Shown: in pieces, positions 1 through 10,929 of the stretch
How positions within the stretch are numbered: position 1 is the stretch's first letter
Layout of the letters: each line of letters opens with the position of its first letter
DNA from: a bacterium
GTDB lineage: Bacteria > UBP15 > UBA6099 > DSWB01
NCBI GenBank assembly: GCA_020061125.1
Contig: JAGUYV010000383.1
Coordinates: 1-10,929 of the forward strand
DNA: 10,929 nucleotides
Reading direction: 5' to 3'
The notes under the pieces: generated by a model
Seen by the model: the letters and a program-made list of their open reading frames with translations, nothing else
Told to the model about the DNA's origin: nothing
Databases searched by the model: none
Made by a program: the position numbers and the translations under genes

Positions 1-888
1 CCCGACGGCGCAAGCACGGAAAAACCCGTGCTGTTCATCACCTCGGACCCGCCCGGCGCGAGCGTGAGCATTGACGGGGAGAAAATCGAACAGCCGACGC
101 CGGTCCGCGTGTCCGTGGATCAGGCACAAGAAGCGGTCATCGAATTTTCCCTGCCCGGATACCTGACCAAGAGAACCACCGCCACCGTCAAACAGGACGG
201 CGAAACTCAAATCAGCGCAACGCTCCAGCCCGTGCCGGATCTTCTGGGCGGGTTCGAGGTCCGGTGCGCGCCCGCTTGCGACGACCTGCTGATTGACGGC
301 GCGCCCGCAGAGGGCGTCAAGCGCCCGTTCCGCACCGCGCGCGTCAACGCCTCGGCCGGGCAGCATACGCTCGAAGCCGTCAACGGCGTGAACACGCGCT
401 CACGAACCGCGTCCGTTGAGGAGAACAAACTCACCACAGTGGAATTCGTTTTCGGGGAACAATCCGCGGCCCCGGCTATGCCGGCAATCGCGCAGCCCGC
501 GCCGCAGGCATCATCACCCGGCGCGCCCCGCCAATCCCGCACGCCAGCCGCGCAGCCTGCGCCAAAGGCCAGAGTCGAAGTGGTGACCCCATCGGCTTCG
601 GCCAGCGGTCCGGTTTCCAAAACCGGCCCCACCGCCAGAAACACCGCGGACAGCCCCGCATTCGTGACCGTGGAAGCCACATCCGCGCAGGGCGCGGTGC
701 CCGGCTGCCGCGTCATGTTCTTCCAGGGCGGCCGTCTGGCCGCCACCGGCTCGTCCGGATCGCCCATCAAGCTCGAACCGGGATCCTACCAGCTCAAGGT
801 CTCTCGCGACGGATTCGCCCCGTACGAAACGCAGAAATACATCGCTTCGGGATCGCAATCCCTCACCGTATTCATTTCGGGCAAATAG
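1..888 (+). CDS. PEGA-repeat protein, 5' end outside the window
   Basis: The frame is open from the first base and stops at 886-888, giving 295 visible codons. A GTG at 28 is a possible start, but the frame continues upstream and the first repeat begins right there, so the gene is probably truncated by the window edge. Visible codons 10-76 form a typical PEGA repeat: SDPPGASVSIDG near its start and a LPGY turn later. Codons 83-150 form a second, divergent repeat (DDLLIDG, with two nearby cysteines). A Pro/Ala/Ser-rich linker covers about 156-220, and a third PEGA-like unit fills 221-295 (LEPGSYQLKVSRDGF). PEGA domains are small beta folds, usually extracytoplasmic, on surface-layer-like proteins and on the outer part of some Ser/Thr kinases. 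The next gene starts 13 bases later, so the two are probably cotranscribed. The N-terminus, and so any kinase or anchor, is not visible. Confidence 0.8.
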   Translation, partial: PDGASTEKPVLFITSDPPGASVSIDGEKIEQPTPVRVSVDQAQEAVIEFSLPGYLTKRTTATVKQDGETQISATLQPVPDLLGGFEVRCAPACDDLLIDGAPAEGVKRPFRTARVNASAGQHTLEAVNGVNTRSRTASVEENKLTTVEFVFGEQSAAPAMPAIAQPAPQASSPGAPRQSRTPAAQPAPKARVEVVTPSASASGPVSKTGPTARNTADSPAFVTVEATSAQGAVPGCRVMFFQGGRLAATGSSGSPIKLEPGSYQLKVSRDGFAPYETQKYIASGSQSLTVFISGK

Positions 889-892
889 GAGG
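887..892 (+). promoter_or_regulatory. Strong Shine-Dalgarno for a TTG start
   Basis: AGGAGG matches the full anti-Shine-Dalgarno core and lies 9 bases before TTG at 902. It overlaps the TAG stop of the upstream PEGA gene (886-888). No ATG or GTG lies at a suitable distance in the frame; the first in-frame ATG is at codon 90, deep inside the conserved domain. This site therefore decides the start and suggests translational coupling between the two genes. Confidence 0.75.
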
Positions 893-901
893 CACAATCG
901 T

Positions 902-2632
902 TTGGCCCGCGAAATCGTAGCACACAAATCGTACCAGACCATCGTGGGAAGCGCGCCCGCGAACGGCGCCGAGCCGGAAGGCGTGTACATCCTCGACACC
1001 AACGACACCGCCAACTTCTTCGGCCTGTTTGTAATTTACAACGGAGACCGCACCCGCGCGCAGTTCGCGGTCGAGCATCTGCGGCGGCGCTTCTCCGCGT
1101 ACTGCGATGTGTTCCAGAACCGGGACATCGCAAAACCCAGAGTGTTTTTTCAGGAACTTCTCACGGACATGCTGCGCGAGATGCAGAAAAACGGCATGGA
1201 GCCTGCGGACGGCGATTCCATGGCCGCAGTGCTGCTCAAAGAAGGCCGCGCCATTATCGGACGCCTGCGCAACTGCCCTATCTTTTATCTGCGCGACCAC
1301 AAGTACCGCAATGTGTTCCCGTCGGCGGGATCGGGTTCGGGCAAGCTCGAAGTCACTTCCGTGACCGTGTCCAACAACGACATGATTCTGCTCTGCTCGC
1401 AGGACATGGTGCGCCGCATCACCAAACAGGAATTGCGCAGCCTGATCCTGTCCAAGTCCGACCCGGACGAAGCGTGCGCGCGCATCACTGAACTGGCGAA
1501 CCGGTACGAGGAAGTCAAAGCCCCGCGCATCGTGCTCATGGGCTTGAAGCGCAACCGTGAAGAAAGCAAAGCGCTGTTGAACACGCGCAATATCGGGCTG
1601 CTGGCGGGCATCGCCCTGCTGATCCTGGGGCTGGTGTTCTGGCGCGAGATCAGCGGGTTCGTGCAGCACAGCCTCAAGTCTCGCATCGTGAGCAAAATAC
1701 AAAACATGTCCGAATCCCTGGGCGGCGGCGGCGACAAGCGGAGCGGAGCGGACAGCCCCATGTACGAATTCGAGACGCTGTTCGACGGCCTGGCCGTGCC
1801 CTACGACATCGCCGTGAGCCGCGACGAAGTCTACTTCGTGGTGGATGACAAGGAGTCCCAGATTATCCGCTTCGATCCCTCCGACAAAAAGATGACCCTG
1901 GTGGGCAACGGACTCGACCTTCAATTCCCCACGGGCATCGAAATCATCGGAAATAATCTGTACATCACGGATTTCAAATCCACCGCCAACCAGGTGCTGA
2001 TCATCAAAGCGGACGGAACCGTCGGCAAAACCATCAAGGCCGTGGACAAACCCGGCGTCGGCTCGCTGCGCAACCCCAAGGCCATCGCCGCGGATGCGGA
2101 TTCCAACATCTGGGTGGCGGACCGCACCAACAACCGCATTCTGAAATTCAACATGCACGGGGACTACATCGGGAAAGTGCAGTGCAGCGCGGCGTTTTCA
2201 TCGCCCAACGGTCTTGCCGCAGGGCCGGAGGGCCGCGTGTTCGCAACATTCAAGGACACCAACAATGTGGCGGTTATCGAAAAGAACGGCGCGCTCAAGG
2301 AGTTCAAGATCCACAGCGGCGAAGGCGCGAACGCCAGGCCGGTGACTTTTGACCAGCCCTCGGGCATCGCCGTGGACCGCAAGGGGTTCGTGTATGTCGC
2401 GGACCGGCAGAACAACCGCATTGTGGTGTCCGATCCGCGCGGCCGCGTGGACGCTATTCTGGACAAAAGCAGGAACAGAGATTTCGCCACCTACATGCCC
2501 TTTGGTTTGAAACTCGGCCCAAAAGGAAAATATCTATATATAGTCGGGAGCGCGGCGCTGTCCTATGACAGCACCTGCCAGTTCGAGGCCGACAAGTGCC
2601 GGGGCAAGATCTGGCGCATGCGCATTGAATGA
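902..2632 (+). CDS. Degenerate PP2C-like domain, TM helix and NHL beta-propeller
   Basis: This 576-residue protein starts at TTG. Residues 10-215 follow the PP2C (PPM) phosphatase order. FFGLF (39-43) stands where active enzymes have FFGVFDGHGG. GDSMAAVLL (104-112) matches the GSTA strand. GRLRNCPIFYL (120-130) replaces the GDSRAYL motif, MILLCSQDM (161-169) replaces LLLCSDGL, and KAPRIVLMG (206-214) replaces DNITVVVV. The metal-binding aspartates are thus missing at every recognisable site, so catalysis is unlikely. A basic stretch (KRNREESK) precedes one membrane helix at about 230-247, placing the PP2C domain in the cytoplasm. After a Gly-rich linker, residues 292-575 hold six NHL repeats, clearest as NPKAIAADADSNIWVADR and QPSGIAVDRKGFVYVADR. 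Cysteines 559 and 566 could form a disulfide in the periplasm. The inferred role is a non-enzymatic transmembrane sensor or scaffold. The NHL and TM calls are firm; the PP2C call rests on motif order. Confidence 0.78.
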   Translation: MAREIVAHKSYQTIVGSAPANGAEPEGVYILDTNDTANFFGLFVIYNGDRTRAQFAVEHLRRRFSAYCDVFQNRDIAKPRVFFQELLTDMLREMQKNGMEPADGDSMAAVLLKEGRAIIGRLRNCPIFYLRDHKYRNVFPSAGSGSGKLEVTSVTVSNNDMILLCSQDMVRRITKQELRSLILSKSDPDEACARITELANRYEEVKAPRIVLMGLKRNREESKALLNTRNIGLLAGIALLILGLVFWREISGFVQHSLKSRIVSKIQNMSESLGGGGDKRSGADSPMYEFETLFDGLAVPYDIAVSRDEVYFVVDDKESQIIRFDPSDKKMTLVGNGLDLQFPTGIEIIGNNLYITDFKSTANQVLIIKADGTVGKTIKAVDKPGVGSLRNPKAIAADADSNIWVADRTNNRILKFNMHGDYIGKVQCSAAFSSPNGLAAGPEGRVFATFKDTNNVAVIEKNGALKEFKIHSGEGANARPVTFDQPSGIAVDRKGFVYVADRQNNRIVVSDPRGRVDAILDKSRNRDFATYMPFGLKLGPKGKYLYIVGSAALSYDSTCQFEADKCRGKIWRMRIE

Positions 2633-2709: not shown

Positions 2710-3333
2710 ATGTTACGCAACGCCAAAATCATAAGCGCACGAATCTTTGTGCCCGCGCTGGCCGCTTTGTGCATGTTCCTCGCGCCGCGCGCCTTCGCGC
2801 AGACCGCTTACGGAAACATGCAATCGCCGCAGGCCGCGGCCCCGGCCGCATCTTCCGAAGAATATGCGCGCATCGAAATGGCCTACACACAGGTCGTGAA
2901 ATACTACAACAAAAAACTGCCGGACAACGAAGCGCTGCGCATCGCGCGCTGCATCCTTTATTACTCGAATTACTACAAGCTGGACCCGCGCCTCGTGGTG
3001 GCGGTGATCGTGCAGGAATCGCGCTTCAACCCGTCGGCCGTGTCCCATGCGGGGGCGCAGGGTCTGGGGCAGCTCATGCCCGGCACCGCGCGCTATCTGG
3101 GCGTGTCCAATTCTTTCGATGTGCAGCAGAACATTTACGGCACCGTGCGCTATCTGCGCGAGCAGTACGACCGGTTCCAGAGCAACCCGAATGTGCTTGA
3201 TTACATGCTGGCCGCATACAACGCGGGGCCGGAGGCCGTGGCCAAATACAAAGGCGTGCCGCCCTACAAGGAAACGCGCAACTATGTGGTGCAGGTGAAA
3301 AAGCTCTACAAGTATTTCATGTACGGTTCATGA
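2710..3333 (+). CDS. Secreted lytic transglycosylase, SLT domain
   Basis: This 207-residue protein is predicted to cleave the MurNAc-GlcNAc bond of peptidoglycan in the periplasm, leaving 1,6-anhydro-MurNAc ends. Residues 1-30 form a Sec signal peptide: basic MLRNAK, a hydrophobic core, and cleavage after AFA at 30. C21 does not sit in a lipobox, so it is probably soluble. The Slt/MltC/MltE-type (GH23) domain covers about 90-207. It has the catalytic glutamate E103 in QESRFNP, the GAQGLGQLMPGTA motif, and AAYNAGP at 168-174. These motifs are intact, so activity is expected. AAGGAG at 2698-2703 lies 6 bases before the ATG. The gene starts 77 bases after the NHL gene and ends 18 bases before the HD-GYP gene. 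At this short length it resembles small cell-wall remodelling or machine-assembly transglycosylases rather than the large Slt70. The specific subfamily is not resolved. Confidence 0.92.
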   Translation: MLRNAKIISARIFVPALAALCMFLAPRAFAQTAYGNMQSPQAAAPAASSEEYARIEMAYTQVVKYYNKKLPDNEALRIARCILYYSNYYKLDPRLVVAVIVQESRFNPSAVSHAGAQGLGQLMPGTARYLGVSNSFDVQQNIYGTVRYLREQYDRFQSNPNVLDYMLAAYNAGPEAVAKYKGVPPYKETRNYVVQVKKLYKYFMYGS

Positions 3334-3351: not shown

Positions 3352-5679
3352 ATGGATTTTGAACGCACCGAAGACGAACCCAGGCGCTACAGCTCGCGCG
3401 GCTTGAGGCTCAAGCTGCTGCTGTCCTTCAGCCTGCTCATCGTGGTAACCACGGCCATCATGTTCTGGCTCACCTATGACAGCACCAGCCGCCTGGCCGC
3501 GGACAAGGTGCGCCATCGCGTGGCCCTGCTCACCAATGTGTTCGCCATGCAGGTGAACCAGGAAATCGCGAGCGTAAAAGCCGGCGTGGAACTGCTGGCC
3601 GACGACAAGATGGCCATGGATCTGCATGCGAACAGTTCCTTGCCCAGGGACTATGCGTATGATTTCCTGCACAACATGGCTTTAGAAAATGCATATTTTC
3701 TGATCTACGACGCCAAAGGCCGCCTGATGTGCATCAACGCGGACCACGGCGCGCAATCCGCAAAAATCGAACGCATCGCACAGACTCTGGAAAAGATCCG
3801 GATCAGCAAGCGCAGCCGCACCTTCGTGTTCCGCGCGGCGCCACGGCGCGAGAACATCAACAAGCTGTACATCGCCACGCGGATTTTCGCAGATGACGGC
3901 GCCCTGCGCGGTTTTATCGTTCTCGAAAAGAAACTGGCCACGGCCCAATTCGGCAGCATCGTCCGGGACATGGACATCGGCGGCAACGGCATGGATGCCT
4001 ACCTTGTGGACGCCTCCGGCGTGATCCTGTCGCACCCGGACCCGAAACTGATTGGCGCCAATGTGTTCGGGCCGGGCATGCCCCTGGAATCCATGCGCGG
4101 GAAAAGCGCAGCCAAATCCCTGGCAATGCTGCCAGAAGAATTTGATTTCAAAATCGGGCGCGAGAAATTCCTGGGCGCGTCCATGCCCGTGAACACGGAG
4201 CTTGGCTGGAAGATTGTGCTCATTCAACCATACGACGAGATTGCCGCGGCCGTGGCGCGCATCGGGCAGAGGATCCTGTTCGTAGGCGCACTGGCGCTGG
4301 TCACGGCGTTCGGCCTGGCCCTGTACCGCGCGCACCGCGTGCTCATGCCCATCGGCGAGCTGCTGAACGCGGTGGACGAAATCAGCCGCGGCGAATACTC
4401 CAAGCGCGTCAAGGTGCGCCGCCGCGACGAAATCGGCTCCCTGGCCCTAGCCTTCAACCGCATGTCCGGCACCCTCGAAGAAAAAATCAACGCCCTGCAG
4501 GAAAGCCAGGCCCAGCTCCGAGAGGCGTTCCACCAGCTTCAAATTGACGCGCGCAAGCGCGAGGAAACCAATCAGCAACTGCGCCGAAAGGTCAGCGAAC
4601 TCACAAGCATCAGCGAAATCACCCAGGCCGTAAGCGCCAGCCTGGACCTGCAGACCGTGCTAGACACCATCGTGCGCACCATCAACGATGTGATGGGCTT
4701 CCGCTACTGCTCGATCAAACTGCTCGATGTCAAAAGCGGCACCCTGCTGGTGCGCGTGGCGTCCGGCCTGGGCGACGAATATGTGAACCGCCCGCCCACG
4801 GCCGTGGGCAAAGGCATCAGCGGCCGCGCGGTCCAGGAGCGCGCGCCCGTGATTATCGAAAGCATAGACACCGACGACAGCGTGGAACAGGCGCATGTGA
4901 TCCGCTCCATCGGCATCCGATCCATGGTCAGCTTCCCTCTCATTACCAAAAACTCGGTCATGGGCGTGCTGAACATCTATTCCGAGGAAGAACACACCTT
5001 CACCGAAGATGAAATGCGCATGCTGGCCATCCTGGCCATCCAGGCCGCGTCCGCCATCGAGAACGCCCGCCTGTTCGACGACCTGCGCGAGAGCTACCTC
5101 AACACCATCCAGGCGCTCTCCATGACCATTGACGCCAAGGACGCCTACACCCACGGCCACTCCAAGCGCGTGAGCGACATCTCGGTGCTTGTCGGCAATG
5201 AACTCAAAATGGACAACGGGCAGCTCGAACTGCTCAAATATGCGAGCGACCTTCACGACATCGGCAAGATCGGCATCCCCGAGCACATCATATCCAAGGA
5301 AGGCAAGCTCTCCGTTGACGAATACGAAATCGTGAAAACCCATCCGCTCGTGGGCGAAACCATCGTGGAGCCGGTGCCGTTCCTCAATGAAATCAAGGAT
5401 GTGATCCGCCACCACCACGAACGATACGACGGGTTCGGGTATCCCGACGGGCTGAAGGGCGACGACATCCCGCTCATGTCTCGCATCATCCTCATCGCCG
5501 ACGCTTACGACGCCATGACTTCCGACCGGCCGTACCGCCGCGCGCTGTCTCATGAAGCCGCGCTCAAGGAAATCGAAAAGCACTCGGGCACGCAGTTCGA
5601 CCCCGAGGTGGCCGCGGCGTTCATGCGCGTGTTCGGCAACAGGGATAAAGCGCAGGAAGTCATCAAACAAATGGTCTGA
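3352..5679 (+). CDS. dCache-HAMP-GAF-HD-GYP receptor, predicted c-di-GMP phosphodiesterase
   Basis: The 775 residues read as a one-piece membrane receptor. TM1 is at about 20-42. A 265-residue periplasmic region follows, with the Cache-type strand DAYLVDASGVILSHPD from 215. TM2 is at about 308-328, a HAMP linker at 328-383, a coiled coil to about 418, and a GAF domain at about 417-577. The C-terminal HD-GYP domain shows HGHSKRV (601-607), the metal-binding pair H635-D636 with K639 (LHDIGKIG), H664, H688-H689, GYP (696-698) and D717 (LIADAYDAM), followed by SDRPYRR. All signature residues are present, so it should hydrolyse cyclic di-GMP to pGpG or GMP in the cytoplasm. The signal is probably a small molecule bound by the dCache domain, and the GAF may bind a second ligand; neither ligand can be read from sequence. 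GGGAG at 3335-3339 lies 12 bases before the ATG. The gene follows the transglycosylase by 18 bases. Confidence 0.93.
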   Translation: MDFERTEDEPRRYSSRGLRLKLLLSFSLLIVVTTAIMFWLTYDSTSRLAADKVRHRVALLTNVFAMQVNQEIASVKAGVELLADDKMAMDLHANSSLPRDYAYDFLHNMALENAYFLIYDAKGRLMCINADHGAQSAKIERIAQTLEKIRISKRSRTFVFRAAPRRENINKLYIATRIFADDGALRGFIVLEKKLATAQFGSIVRDMDIGGNGMDAYLVDASGVILSHPDPKLIGANVFGPGMPLESMRGKSAAKSLAMLPEEFDFKIGREKFLGASMPVNTELGWKIVLIQPYDEIAAAVARIGQRILFVGALALVTAFGLALYRAHRVLMPIGELLNAVDEISRGEYSKRVKVRRRDEIGSLALAFNRMSGTLEEKINALQESQAQLREAFHQLQIDARKREETNQQLRRKVSELTSISEITQAVSASLDLQTVLDTIVRTINDVMGFRYCSIKLLDVKSGTLLVRVASGLGDEYVNRPPTAVGKGISGRAVQERAPVIIESIDTDDSVEQAHVIRSIGIRSMVSFPLITKNSVMGVLNIYSEEEHTFTEDEMRMLAILAIQAASAIENARLFDDLRESYLNTIQALSMTIDAKDAYTHGHSKRVSDISVLVGNELKMDNGQLELLKYASDLHDIGKIGIPEHIISKEGKLSVDEYEIVKTHPLVGETIVEPVPFLNEIKDVIRHHHERYDGFGYPDGLKGDDIPLMSRIILIADAYDAMTSDRPYRRALSHEAALKEIEKHSGTQFDPEVAAAFMRVFGNRDKAQEVIKQMV
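3684..3701. repeat. AT-rich inverted repeat inside the HD-GYP gene
   Basis: AGAAAAT (3684-3690) and ATTTTCT (3695-3701) are perfect inverted arms of 7 bases around GCAT. The surrounding gene is GC-rich, and the segment includes the rare TTA leucine codon at 3682-3684. The repeat encodes part of the periplasmic sensor domain. It could be chance, a weak hairpin in the mRNA or a protein-binding site; nothing favours a functional reading. Confidence 0.3.
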
Positions 5680-5714: not shown

Positions 5715-6053
5715 ATGGACGATGGCAAACTGGGCCTCAACGCGCTCAACAATCTGCAGCGCGCAAAAGACATCAAGCGCGTTCACGACGCGGCGCGCAA
5801 GAACAAAAAGGAAAAACGGGAAACCGACGACGGGCGCGCGTTCACGGATTTCCTCGAGGAGAACGAAAAAGTCGTGGAGGGTTTCAACGACTTCGTTCCC
5901 GAGGAGCCGATGATTCAGGCGCCGTCCGGGAAAATGCTGGAACTTCTGGGTTCGGCCGCGGGGCCGCCTCTGGTTATCGAACCCCTGGAGGAAGCTCCGC
6001 CCGCGCAGGACAAGGACGGCGAAAAACCCGCAAAGGACAAGGGCGGAGAGTGA
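5715..6053 (+). CDS. Small charged hypothetical protein
   Basis: I do not recognise this 112-residue protein. Third codon positions are mostly G or C, as in its neighbours, which supports it as the true frame here over a second open frame at 5692-5913. No other start lies upstream in frame; GGGGG at 5701-5705 is a weak ribosome site 9 bases before the ATG. Residues 1-40 are rich in Lys/Arg and probably helical (RAKDIKRVHDAARKNKKEKR). Residues 42-65 are acidic with aromatic residues (FTDFLEENEKVVEGFNDF). The C-terminal third is Pro/Glu/Lys-rich and probably disordered. There is no signal peptide or membrane helix, so it is probably cytoplasmic. It starts 35 bases after the HD-GYP gene and its stop lies next to the acylphosphatase start, so the three are likely cotranscribed. 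A partner or adaptor role for the HD-GYP protein is only a guess from position. Confidence 0.65.
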   Translation: MDDGKLGLNALNNLQRAKDIKRVHDAARKNKKEKRETDDGRAFTDFLEENEKVVEGFNDFVPEEPMIQAPSGKMLELLGSAAGPPLVIEPLEEAPPAQDKDGEKPAKDKGGE

Positions 6054-6061
6054 CGCAAGCC

Positions 6062-6334
6062 ATGGCGGGCTTTCAAGCCATTGTGTCGGGCCGCGTGCAG
6101 GGCGTGGGATTCCGCTGGTTCGTGCAGCGCGCGGCCGAGCGCCTCGGAGTGCGCGGCACGGTGCGCAACCTGCCGGACGGCGCTGTGGAAGTCAACGCCG
6201 AAGCGAACCCCGCGGCGCTCGATGCGCTCATCGCCGAACTCAAAACCGGCCCCGGCATGTCACGCGTGGACTCCGTGGACTTAGTCTGGAGAAAAACAAA
6301 CCAGGGTTACAGGGACTTTCGAATCACCCGCTGA
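6062..6334 (+). CDS. acyP: Acylphosphatase
   Basis: The enzyme (EC 3.6.1.7) hydrolyses acyl phosphates, such as 1,3-bisphosphoglycerate, acetyl phosphate or carbamoyl phosphate, to carboxylate and phosphate in the cytoplasm. From ATG at 6062 the protein has 90 residues, the usual length for the family. It carries the full signature VSGRVQGVGFRWF (8-20), with catalytic R18, and GTVRNLPDG (32-40), with catalytic N36. The C-terminus YRDFRITR is also typical. A GTG at 6050 in the same frame would add four residues (MTQA) and overlap the stop of the previous gene by GTGA. I prefer ATG because GGAG at 6045-6048 is too close to that GTG, though it lies 13 bases from the ATG, which is long. Either start implies coupling to the small gene upstream. 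Its substrate and any link to signalling are unknown. Confidence 0.95.
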   Translation: MAGFQAIVSGRVQGVGFRWFVQRAAERLGVRGTVRNLPDGAVEVNAEANPAALDALIAELKTGPGMSRVDSVDLVWRKTNQGYRDFRITR

Positions 6335-6382: not shown

Positions 6383-7054
6383 ATGAAAAAGTACACCGAC
6401 TGGCAGAAGTATGTAAAAGAACAAACCGAGAAACTGAACCGGATGCGCCCCGCCGAAGAAGCGCCGCGCACGAATGTTCCCGAGATTGACGGCGACCGGT
6501 TCACGATCCGCAAAAAAGAAACTCTGCCCTCGACGCCGCCCGAGACCCGCGACAGCAGCGCACGCCCAGGCGCACGACCCCTGCCTTCAGACACGCGCAA
6601 GCCCTTTTCCCAGGCGGTCCCGCAGCAATCCGCGGACGAATCCGGCGAACCCGCAACTCCCATCACCTCTCCTTTCGTGTCCGTGCAGGACATATGGAAA
6701 TCCGCGGAAAAGACAACGCGGAAAAAACCCGCCGAGCACAGACAAGACAGCGCGGACCCCGGCTTCAAGGCGCGCGCCGCGCGCGTTCCCGAAGTCACGC
6801 GGGCCAAAAAGCCGGACCCTGTTCCAGACCCCCGCGCCCAGGCCGCACGCGAGGAATCCCGCGATGAAATCCTCGAACGGCTTATGAACCCGACCATCAC
6901 GCTCGAAGAAGCCGCGAAAATCATGGGCGTGTGCAAGGCCACGGTGCGCCGCTACACGGCCATGGGCATCCTGCCCCATTACCGCACGCCCGGCAACCAG
7001 CGCCGTTTCAAGCTTAACGACATCATTTCGTTCCTGGAAAACCAGCGCCGCTGA
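6383..7054 (+). CDS. Disordered protein with C-terminal BldC/MerR-like helix-turn-helix
   Basis: The 223-residue protein starts with ATG, 8 bases after AAGGGA (6369-6374). Residues 1-30 look helical and charged (MKKYTDWQKYVKEQTEKL). Residues 30-160 are Pro/Arg/Lys/Glu-rich and low in hydrophobics, so probably disordered, except for a short island SVQDIWKSAEK. The C-terminal 53 residues form a winged helix-turn-helix of the MerR/BldC/excisionase type: ITLEEAAKIMGVCKATVRRY (172-191), the wing GILPHYRTPGNQRRF (195-209), then NDIISFLENQ. This domain binds DNA in its relatives, usually as a dimer or along repeated sites. There is no effector-binding domain as in classical MerR regulators. It sits just upstream of the ligase gene and might control it or the operon. 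An excisionase is less likely because no integrase or attachment site is nearby. Confidence 0.85.
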   Translation: MKKYTDWQKYVKEQTEKLNRMRPAEEAPRTNVPEIDGDRFTIRKKETLPSTPPETRDSSARPGARPLPSDTRKPFSQAVPQQSADESGEPATPITSPFVSVQDIWKSAEKTTRKKPAEHRQDSADPGFKARAARVPEVTRAKKPDPVPDPRAQAAREESRDEILERLMNPTITLEEAAKIMGVCKATVRRYTAMGILPHYRTPGNQRRFKLNDIISFLENQRR

Positions 7055-7165: not shown

Positions 7166-10100
7166 ATGAACACTGCGCGCATCCAACGACCGGCATCCAC
7201 AGCCGAAACCATCGTGGAGATCTTTCTCCTGCCCCTGCTTCTTGCCGTTCCTTACGCCGTGCTGCTCCAGCTTTTCCGGGGCGTGAACAGCGAGCCGAAC
7301 TGGGTCTGGCTCTGGATCACCGTGGTTGCCGTGACCGCCGCAACCGTGGCGGCCTTCCATTTCCTGCGTCTCGAACTGGCGCGCCTGCCCCTGCCCTGGT
7401 TCGGCTCCGTGTATCTGGCCCAGACCGTTTTCTTCGTTTGCTTCTTCATCATCTTCAGTTCCCAGGAATCCTTCCGCCTGCCCCAGCAGACCCTGCTGCA
7501 GATCACAGTGTCCGCGTGCGCGCTGCTGTTCGCGATTCAAACGGCGTGGTCCGGCCGCGCTTACTGGCGCAAGACGCATCTGAACCTTCCCATTGCCCTG
7601 TCGCTGGCTTTCGCCCTGGTGTCCTTTGCGTTCTCTCCCAGCTTCTGGGTGAGCATGAAAGATTACATTGAGCTGGTATGCATCGCGATCCTGTTCTGGC
7701 TCATCGTCAACTCGTGGGACGCGCGCCGCCATTTCAGCCTCACCGCGGCTCTGGCCGTGCTCATCGGCTCTCTCATGGCGCTCATCGGCGTGGCCCAGCA
7801 CTTCAACGCCAACGAACTCTATGGCCTGGGCCGCAACCTGGACCCGTTCTCCACTCTGGGGAACAAGAACTATGTAGCCGAACTCCTGGCCATGGTCACG
7901 CCCCTGGCCCTGGCCATGACCATTGCGGTACGCAGGCTGCTGCACAGGGTTCTTCTGTGGATCGGCATCGAGTTCATGCTCATCGTGGTGATTGTGGCCG
8001 AGACCCGCGGCTCGTGGCTCGGTCTCATCATGGGCCTGCTCGTATTGCTGTTCTACGGGCTGGACAATTTCGGCCCGCGCATGCGCCGCGCCCTGGCGTT
8101 CACCATCGCCGCGTTCCTGGCCAACGCCCTGATCATCATGTATCTGTCCCAGAACCAGTTCGTGTTAGGCCCCGGCCCCATCGCATACAAAGAGCGCTTC
8201 CTGTCCATGGTGCGGGTGCTGGACTCTGCGTTGGCGTCGCGGCCGCAACTGTGGTACGGCGTGCTCGGGGCCATCCTCGCCGCGGTTGCGATATCGCAAT
8301 TCATGCTGCGCACGGCGCGCGCGCGCATCGCCGCCGCGATTTTCATTATCGCCGCCGCGGGCGTGACCCTGGCCTTCGAGCGCACCATCAAAACCCCGGA
8401 GCCGGCCCCGGTTCAGGCGCAGGCGGAGTCCTCGTACCAGAAGCCCCTGGACGACTCCATCGCCTCCCGCCGCTTCATCTACGGCGGCTCCATGCAGATG
8501 GTGCTCGAATATCCGCTGGGCGCGGGCATCGGCATCTTCAAGGTCCGCTATCTGCCCATGCTCAAGGACTATCTGCGCGACAACGGCATTGAGGAAATCC
8601 CGGGCTTCTTCAAGGATGTCAACGCCAAGGAAGCACACAATGAATATCTGCACACGCTCGCAGAGCAGGGGCCGATCGGTCTGTTCCTTGTGCTGTTTTT
8701 CATCATGCGGCTGATTCAGTATTTTTATCGCGTGTATTATCAGAGCCGCGACGCGTCCGTGCGCATGATCGTGCTGGGTGCGTTTTCCGGCCTCGCCGCC
8801 GTCGGCACCTCGGCCATGCTCGGGTTTCCGTTCCGCATCGTGCCCACGGCTGTGGTGTGCTGTCTGCTGCTGTCCCTGATGGTGTTCGCCGAAGCGCGCA
8901 ACCGCGCAAGGGACGACGGCAAGGATACGGAAAACCCGGACAGCGCCCCGGAGATCTGGCGCGCGTTTTCCCTCTCGCCCGTGCCACGCGCCGTCGTGCC
9001 CGCCGCGGCGCTCGTGTTCGCCGTGTTCACTTCCTTCTATTCATACAGTTGGCAAAACGCAAACATTCTCATGAAGAAGGGGGACGCGGCTCTGCGCGCC
9101 GCCGAGGGCCGCCAAAATCCTGAAGAAGTGAAACAGCTCACCGAACAGGCCCGGGAGATTCTCGAAAAAGCCTTGAGCTACGATCCGGCCAACGGCGAGA
9201 CCCTCATGAAACTCGGCATGTTCTACCAGAGCATGGCGCAGCGCGAGCCGGAAGCCTCGAAACAGCGCGAACAACTCTTCGACAAGGCCATTTCGCATCT
9301 CACGGAATCCCTCAAATACTTCGAGCTGCCCCAGTCGCGCCTCAACCTCGGCGCCGCGTACTTCCACAAGGGCATGCTCTATTTCTCCCGCGCGCGCACC
9401 CCCGAACATCAGCACCGCTCCGAGCAGCTTTTCAAACTCGGTTACGAGTATTTCGCCAAAGCCGAAAAGGAATTCGAAAGCACGCTGCGCATCTATCCCA
9501 ACTACTCGCTGCCGCACTTCAACCTCGCGCTGATTCAATACGAATACGCGCAGCGCATGACCGAGCGGGAACAGCAGAAACGCCAGGAAGCGTTCCTGCT
9601 GCGCCGCGAGGCCCAGGCCCAGCCGCCCGCACAGGCGGAACAGGCGCTCAAACGAGCCGAAGAACTCGAACGAGACGCCGCCGCTCTGCACAAGCAGGCC
9701 ATGGACCTTTATGATGTGGCCGTGCAACGCTTCAAAAAAACCCTGGAGATCGAACCCACCCTGGTCGTGGCCAGCTTCAAGCTCGGCATTTCCTACGAGC
9801 GCATGGACCGCCCTGATCTGGCGCGCGAACAATACGAGTCCACCATTCGCCTCACGGCCCAGTCGCCCACGGACAACGCCACCCTGGCCGACTCCTACTA
9901 CAACCTGGGCATCATCTACTCCGCGGACGCCATGGAATACGCCTCGCAGGCCGGCGCCGTGGGCCTGTCCCGCGAGCAGCAGCAGGCCGTGTTCGCCTCC
10001 CACGATCTGTTCGTGGAAAAATCCCGCGCCATGTTCAAGCGCGCCATTGACCATAACTACGCGCACATCAAGGCGCACAACAACCTCGCCAACATCCTGT

Positions 10101-10929
10101 ACCAGAAGGGCGAGGAGGACCAGGCCCTGTACCACTATGAGCAGGCGCTTTCCATTGATCCGAATTATCCCGAGGCCAAGCTGAACCTGGTGCTCATCAT
10201 GCTCTCGCAGGCGCAGCGCTCGCGCGACATGTTCAAGTTCCAGGAGTCCCAGCGCTACGCCGAGGAAATGCTGGCCATGAACCCGCAGGGTTCGCAGCTT
10301 CTCAAGGTGCTGCGCATCCTGGGCGTGTGCCACCGCAACCTTGGCAACCTGCAGCAGGCCAACAACTACCTCACGCAGCTCGTGACACAGTTCCGCGGAA
10401 GGCCCGAGATGAACATGCCCGACTACTCCATGGGCGTGCTGAACCTGGCCGAAACCCGCGCGGACCTGGGCGACGCCGCATCGGCCATGGACCTGGCCCG
10501 GCAGGCCGTGGCCAACCCGGTCACGCCCATAAACCAGCTCCGCGCCTTGAGCCGCCTGGCCTCGTGGGAATCAAAATCCGGGCAGGGCGCATCGGCCATG
10601 GCGCACTTCAAGCAGGCCATGGGGTTCATGGACACCTATTACAACGATCCGGAATTCGCGGACGCCGCCATGCAGTATGTGGACGCGCTCCTGCGCCAGG
10701 GCGCCCAGGACCAGGCCATCCGCTTTGTCGAGAACTACTACAAGTCAAAGCCCATCACCAACGACCGCATCAAGAGCGCGCTCACCTTCACCCTTGGCCG
10801 GATGTACGCGGGCGCGGGCCGCATGGACGCCGCGGCGCAATCCTTCCAGTCCATCATCAACAACGGCTGGTTCCAGGCCGAACAGGCGCGGCAGGAACTC
10901 GCCAGAGTGCGCGGTATGGCCGCGCGGCA
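7166..10929 (+). CDS. O-antigen ligase/polymerase (Wzy_C) fused to TPR repeats, 3' end outside
   Basis: From ATG at 7166 the frame stays open to the last base: 1254 codons plus two bases, no stop. An in-frame TGA at 7094 leaves this as the first ATG. About 630 residues form many membrane helices with the O-antigen ligase/polymerase signature: STLGNKNYVAELLA (229-242), ETRGSWLGL (279-287), YPLGAGIGIF (449-458) and AHNEYLHTLAEQGPIGL (490-506), where H491 lies in the presumed periplasmic loop. Family members (WaaL, Wzy, PglL-like) join or transfer lipid-linked glycans at the outer face of the inner membrane. After the last helix (about 612-630), residues 635-1254 are TPR-like helical repeats, for example YEQALSIDPNYPEAKLNLVL, broken by a Gln/Glu/Ala-rich helical stretch near 9560-9700. 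Counting helices, with basic RNRARDDGK on the inside, puts the TPRs in the periplasm. Whether it ligates lipid A-core, polymerises glycan or glycosylates protein cannot be told. Confidence 0.9.
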   Translation, partial: MNTARIQRPASTAETIVEIFLLPLLLAVPYAVLLQLFRGVNSEPNWVWLWITVVAVTAATVAAFHFLRLELARLPLPWFGSVYLAQTVFFVCFFIIFSSQESFRLPQQTLLQITVSACALLFAIQTAWSGRAYWRKTHLNLPIALSLAFALVSFAFSPSFWVSMKDYIELVCIAILFWLIVNSWDARRHFSLTAALAVLIGSLMALIGVAQHFNANELYGLGRNLDPFSTLGNKNYVAELLAMVTPLALAMTIAVRRLLHRVLLWIGIEFMLIVVIVAETRGSWLGLIMGLLVLLFYGLDNFGPRMRRALAFTIAAFLANALIIMYLSQNQFVLGPGPIAYKERFLSMVRVLDSALASRPQLWYGVLGAILAAVAISQFMLRTARARIAAAIFIIAAAGVTLAFERTIKTPEPAPVQAQAESSYQKPLDDSIASRRFIYGGSMQMVLEYPLGAGIGIFKVRYLPMLKDYLRDNGIEEIPGFFKDVNAKEAHNEYLHTLAEQGPIGLFLVLFFIMRLIQYFYRVYYQSRDASVRMIVLGAFSGLAAVGTSAMLGFPFRIVPTAVVCCLLLSLMVFAEARNRARDDGKDTENPDSAPEIWRAFSLSPVPRAVVPAAALVFAVFTSFYSYSWQNANILMKKGDAALRAAEGRQNPEEVKQLTEQAREILEKALSYDPANGETLMKLGMFYQSMAQREPEASKQREQLFDKAISHLTESLKYFELPQSRLNLGAAYFHKGMLYFSRARTPEHQHRSEQLFKLGYEYFAKAEKEFESTLRIYPNYSLPHFNLALIQYEYAQRMTEREQQKRQEAFLLRREAQAQPPAQAEQALKRAEELERDAAALHKQAMDLYDVAVQRFKKTLEIEPTLVVASFKLGISYERMDRPDLAREQYESTIRLTAQSPTDNATLADSYYNLGIIYSADAMEYASQAGAVGLSREQQQAVFASHDLFVEKSRAMFKRAIDHNYAHIKAHNNLANILYQKGEEDQALYHYEQALSIDPNYPEAKLNLVLIMLSQAQRSRDMFKFQESQRYAEEMLAMNPQGSQLLKVLRILGVCHRNLGNLQQANNYLTQLVTQFRGRPEMNMPDYSMGVLNLAETRADLGDAASAMDLARQAVANPVTPINQLRALSRLASWESKSGQGASAMAHFKQAMGFMDTYYNDPEFADAAMQYVDALLRQGAQDQAIRFVENYYKSKPITNDRIKSALTFTLGRMYAGAGRMDAAAQSFQSIINNGWFQAEQARQELARVRGMAAR
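10477..10601 (+). repeat. Direct repeat within adjacent TPR units
   Basis: The 14-mer CGCATCGGCCATGG occurs at 10477-10490 and again at 10588-10601, 111 bases (37 codons) apart and in the same frame. Both copies encode the ASAM turn of neighbouring TPR-like units. The spacing is close to one TPR length (34 residues), so this is best read as the trace of internal repeat duplication. Confidence 0.55.

Follow-up and report, generated by a model that had tools for sequence, protein, structure and literature searches.

In Mycobacterium tuberculosis, the phosphatase PstP consists of a PP2C domain, a membrane helix (TM) and an extracytoplasmic domain; it is an active enzyme and lacks an NHL propeller. 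M. tuberculosis PknD joins an intracellular kinase through one membrane helix to an extracellular six-bladed NHL propeller (PMC1262709; 1rwi). The PP2C-fold binders that we found in the literature are the animal proteins TAB1 and PHLPP2 and the gammaproteobacterial RssB. TAB1 is a pseudophosphatase in which D60 is replaced by Asn and D239 by Glu (PMC8622459), and PHLPP2 illustrates that metal (zinc) binding can survive in a PP2C pseudophosphatase. In RssB, the Escherichia coli adaptor for sigma-S, an N-terminal receiver precedes a PP2C-type effector domain whose main role is regulated binding (PMC5468089), so a non-catalytic PP2C domain is not unprecedented in bacteria. No bacterial transmembrane PP2C pseudophosphatase is described in the open-access literature that we searched, and neither that literature nor the domain libraries hold a family in which a dead PP2C domain is joined to an NHL sensor via a membrane helix, consistent with the original prediction that no named family has this arrangement.

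The protein analyzed here appears to combine these known elements, the PP2C fold, the pseudophosphatase and the NHL receptor, in a new way. It shares the PP2C fold with PstP and, with PknD, the succession of a signaling domain, one membrane helix and a six-bladed NHL propeller, whose extracellular placement is assigned by analogy; where PknD has its kinase, however, there is an apparently dead PP2C domain, and Pfam finds no Ser/Thr kinase domain in the protein. Like TAB1 and PHLPP2, it has a PP2C fold with replaced metal ligands (Asp to Asn and Asp to Glu in TAB1, Asp to Asn and Asp to Gln/Glu here), but the animal proteins are not NHL membrane receptors and carry other partner domains; the likeness is one of fold and site and does not imply orthology. 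RssB offers the bacterial parallel of a PP2C-fold domain with a main role in binding rather than dephosphorylation, a role that we only propose here. RssB lacks an NHL propeller, whereas the present protein has a membrane helix and NHL blades and, according to Pfam, no receiver domain.

The gene lies in a contig of 10,929 bases, the whole of which is called the window below (Table 1); its genome (G000) is incomplete. Its open reading frame starts with TTG and comes directly after the gene of the PEGA protein, which stops at 886–888. The AGGAGG that ends 9 nt before the TTG overlaps this stop codon, which makes translational coupling of the two genes probable. We found no second copy of the gene in G000.

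Table 1. Features of the window.
Feature	Position	Strand	Evidence or remark
C-terminal part (PEGA) of a PP2C-TM-PEGA receptor, PP2C half cut off at contig start	1..888	+	Pfam PEGA
Shine-Dalgarno AGGAGG serving the TTG start	887..892	+	overlaps stop codon of upstream gene
Pseudo-PP2C – membrane helix – six-bladed NHL propeller protein	902..2632	+	576 aa
PP2C-fold domain, canonical metal-site aspartates replaced, flap segment shortened	938..1546	+	residues 13-215; AlphaFold2, Foldseek, VIA-align, motif alignment
Single membrane helix	1583..1639	+	residues about 228-246; hydropathy
Six NHL blades, predicted extracytoplasmic	1787..2629	+	residues about 296-576; Pfam NHL 1.4e-18
Lytic transglycosylase (SLT)	2710..3333	+	Pfam; next gene in all six genomes
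Cache-HAMP-GAF-HD-GYP sensor	3352..5679	+	Pfam; conserved operon member
112 aa operon protein without Pfam match, about 40% identical across genera	5715..6053	+	conserved order
Acylphosphatase	6050..6334	+	Pfam; conserved operon member
MerR-like helix-turn-helix protein	6383..7054	+	Pfam; conserved operon member
O-antigen-ligase-like membrane protein with many C-terminal TPRs, very long	7166..10927	+	runs off contig; after operon in all relatives

The AlphaFold2 model, built from six sequences (mean pLDDT 67), shows a PP2C fold for residues 13–215. Foldseek matched this model to tPphA with an E-value of 4.4e-12, and a second look with VIA-align gave a Z-score of 20.9 over 186 residues at 2.5 Å; PstP matched with Z 20.2. 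Links to PP2Cs by sequence alone are weak (NCBIfam Stp1, 1.5e-4; tPphA chain, 0.002), and no Pfam PP2C family scores above its gathering cut-off for the 576-aa protein. Membership of the PP2C fold is thus settled by the predicted structure and is well supported, in line with the original assignment of the N-terminus, and the quality of the Foldseek and VIA-align matches rules out a chance resemblance. RssB structures are absent among the fold matches listed, which is no evidence either way.

Positions of the metal-binding motifs were taken from an alignment with canonical PP2Cs of unrelated genomes and of the relative G001. The aspartate of the NxD motif corresponds to V28 in the window protein, that of DG to N47 (Ser in G001, Asn in G003), that of GDSR to N124 and that of SDG to Q167, within CSQD (Glu in G001 and G003), and the final DN corresponds to K206-A207 (Gln-Thr in G001). 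Every canonical metal-site aspartate is therefore replaced, as had been claimed. In G003 the final motif reads Val-Asp, with a single Asp one column over, which makes this position ambiguous in that relative. The stretch corresponding to GDSR, the third metal motif, reads RNCP in the window (residues 123–126) and NECP or NACP in the aligned relatives, none of which matches the motif, and the flap segment that separates GDSR from SDG is much shortened. All 6/6 family members, from three genera, have other residues in place of the DG aspartate and of the SDG aspartate, and the canonical sites are lost in all five orthologues as well, indicating that the loss is no accident of the window copy. 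Together, the motifs strongly suggest that the domain is catalytically inactive.

Next to the old active site, C125-P126, E203-E204 and P208-R209 are invariant across the phylum, as are D32 and N34 nearby. Invariance of D32, N34, C125, C192, E203, and E204 within the family would fit an enzyme that still depends on metal, in this case another metal held in a rebuilt site, and retains some hydrolase activity, and PHLPP2 provides a precedent for zinc binding by a PP2C pseudophosphatase via a Cys and Asps. We regard such an enzyme as improbable: the bridging DG Asp, the SDG Asp and, in the window, the last Asp are all changed, PHLPP2 itself is without detectable activity, and the model is too coarse, at its mean pLDDT, to reveal a new site.

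The five orthologues are full-length, 34–36% identical to the window protein over their entire length, and together with it span three genera of the candidate phylum UBP15; the pseudo-PP2C domain alone is 30–33% identical across the phylum. Our sample of the phylum comprises seven genomes, six of which carry the gene. The seventh (G005) is 80% complete and also lacks a clear match to the MerR-like operon gene, so that true loss and missing data are indistinguishable. A search for related loci with the single sequence found none, and the family profile (A2) recovered five loci, which are the same five relatives. Profile A2, built on the dead domain, matches 13 of 386 genomes, of which six are the family itself; outside the phylum it yields weak PP2C matches only.

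Codon variation among four congeneric genomes reveals how strictly the domain is kept. Its variable codons comprise 24 synonymous and 0 nonsynonymous ones, versus 44 and 12 in the NHL part and 43 and 17 in the PP2C domain of the partner encoded upstream (see below). Fisher's test gives p = 0.014 against the NHL part and p = 0.002 against the partner's PP2C, values that are only indicative given the small counts and the common ancestry of the four sequences. Within the genus, no other part of the protein is under tighter constraint than the pseudo-PP2C, and purifying selection on this domain is strong. Family-wide loss of catalytic residues in a domain kept under selection makes its classification as a PP2C-fold pseudophosphatase well supported. 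A decaying PP2C remnant, for which the weak sequence match to PP2C families might speak, would be expected neither to persist phylum-wide at this identity nor to show such codon counts, and we consider this reading refuted. Decay of a single copy, which the original prediction had named as an outcome that would undo it, is likewise ruled out by the five orthologues with the same losses together with the codon counts.

Hydropathy indicates a hydrophobic helix at about residues 228–246, which lies within a continuous helix (residues 220–271) in the AlphaFold2 model. Six NHL blades can be read directly from the sequence (about residues 296–576), and the Pfam NHL family matches with 66.3 bits against a cut-off of 20 (1.4e-18); solved relatives matching this part include TRIM71, Thin, and the sensor of M. 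tuberculosis PknD (1rwi). The proposed single membrane helix and six-repeat propeller are both borne out by these data. The charges flanking the helix are balanced or reversed and do not settle its orientation. In the partner, the ratio of basic to acidic residues is 5:1 or 4:1 before the helix and 1:1 or 2:2 after it, which favors a location of its PP2C domain inside the cell. By analogy with PknD and the partner, we infer that the NHL propeller lies outside and the pseudo-PP2C in the cytoplasm.

The original prediction pictured a one-protein transmembrane relay next to a PEGA protein. PEGA domains are indeed encoded upstream, but comparison with the five relatives identifies the upstream product as no more than the truncated end of another PP2C-TM receptor. 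In 5/5 relatives, the gene directly upstream encodes a protein of 607–628 aa with a PP2C domain, a membrane helix and PEGA, and the window fragment is 25–29% identical to the C-terminal (PEGA) halves of these full-length proteins (loci L041–L045). The presence upstream of a receptor that retains part of its metal site speaks for an arrangement of two proteins instead of the single-protein relay. The PP2C domain of this receptor keeps DG (VADG/IADG) and SDG, and its first and last motifs are acidic (NAE and SED, respectively); GDSR is missing, with GGGA in its place. The partner profile matches solved Staphylococcus Stp1 phosphatases (2.3e-11) and PP2Cs in 94/386 genomes, versus 13/386 for the dead domain, placing the partner closer to working enzymes. 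Its own activity is not certain, and the loss of GDSR calls for caution, but judged by its motifs the partner looks the more active of the two. An alignment of one PP2C domain with the other extends from SDG across the membrane helix (hhalign E 1.7e-4, probability 49%), a weak match that hints at paralogy. AlphaFold2 modeled the partner's PP2C poorly (pLDDT 50), and this model was left out of the analysis. The PP2C half of the partner was not found in the incomplete assembly of the window's genome; the PP2C hits that lie at contig ends (C366 and C268) were rejected as candidates, being canonical intact fragments (DGMGG, GDSR, CTDG, PDN).

That a dead but constrained domain stands beside a similarly built and livelier sister suggests a pair with one catalytic and one non-catalytic member. 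In our preferred reading, for and against which we see the case as evenly balanced, the pseudo-PP2C protein is a receptor subunit that does no catalysis itself but binds the PP2C-TM-PEGA protein, its tandem partner, and modulates it. With the pseudo-PP2C on the cytoplasmic side, one membrane helix and the NHL propeller outside, the two receptors would associate through both their helices and their PP2C domains. A ligand or the envelope state, sensed by the NHL (and PEGA) domains, would change the contact between the receptors, with the long helix passing the NHL signal to the partner's PP2C domain, and the altered contact could then change the partner's activity or its access to substrates. 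Precedent comes from RsbU/SpoIIE-type proteins, in which sensors control PPM domains through helices and dimerization, RsbU being switched on by dimerization through helices (PMC12143880), as we propose for the pair. Unlike the RsbU/SpoIIE-type proteins, which are active enzymes, the pair includes one member that has no metal site, and the sensors of the pair probably lie outside the cytoplasm. A stricter version, which we put forward tentatively and consider rather doubtful, is an obligate pair in which an active PP2C-PEGA and a dead PP2C-NHL subunit form a heterodimeric transmembrane phosphatase with the dead subunit as its allosteric switch.

The receptor pair heads a gene order that is common to the window and all five relatives: PP2C-TM-PEGA, pseudo-PP2C-TM-NHL, lytic transglycosylase, Cache-HAMP-GAF-HD-GYP, the small protein, acylphosphatase and MerR-like protein, with the O-antigen-ligase-like TPR protein further on. 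Conserved gene order alone is no proof of a complex. The invariable position of the lytic transglycosylase gene next to the pair could suit a pseudo-PP2C that merely anchors an NHL protein working outside, for example by scaffolding that enzyme; both PEGA and NHL domains typically serve in binding. The constraint on the pseudo-PP2C, which exceeds that on the rest of the protein within the genus, is more than a passive anchor requires, which makes this reading very unlikely.

After the MerR-like gene, one or two STAS-like genes follow in G001, G002, and G006; Pfam confirms STAS in G001 (two genes) and G002. STAS genes of the relatives lie, for instance, at L041:1772-2482 and L043:14309-14617. 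RsbW-like ATPases are encoded in 7/7 genomes of the phylum and, with the STAS genes, hint at a partner-switching pathway.

The main rival to pairing is independent binding: the pseudo-PP2C may act alone, gripping a phosphoprotein, a kinase or a STAS regulator and releasing it when the NHL propeller binds its ligand. RssB and TAB1 act by binding, and further points in its favor are a PASTA kinase in the genome, the RsbW-like ATPases in all seven genomes and the STAS genes after the operon in relatives. Yet in every relative examined the immediate neighbor is a PP2C receptor that shares this architecture and is partly intact, and there is no STAS gene after the MerR-like gene in the window; we hold independent binding to be possible but unlikely. 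If the preferred reading, a non-catalytic subunit tuning its tandem partner, is correct, the pair would offer a simple system for studying the control of a live phosphatase by a dead one, and the way in which envelope signals reach bacterial Ser/Thr phosphorylation via the phosphatase side instead of a kinase receptor.

Several further loci were noted. The PASTA-type Ser/Thr kinase of the window's genome (L077:256-2277) is a possible counterpart of the PP2C receptors, and large proteins with NHL-like repeats are encoded elsewhere in the same genome (L002, L003, and L004). Outside the phylum, profiles A2 and A5 led to another apparently dead PP2C family (L058, L059, L112, L113, and L115, in G252, G379, G116, G022, and G308), whose members are long and combine two kinase-like domains with a PP2C-like domain and C-terminal TPRs; Pfam confirms the kinase and TPR assignments for L058. 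In the PP2C-like domain of this group, the Asp of DGxGG is replaced, the motif reading SGIG, QGVG or VGHG.
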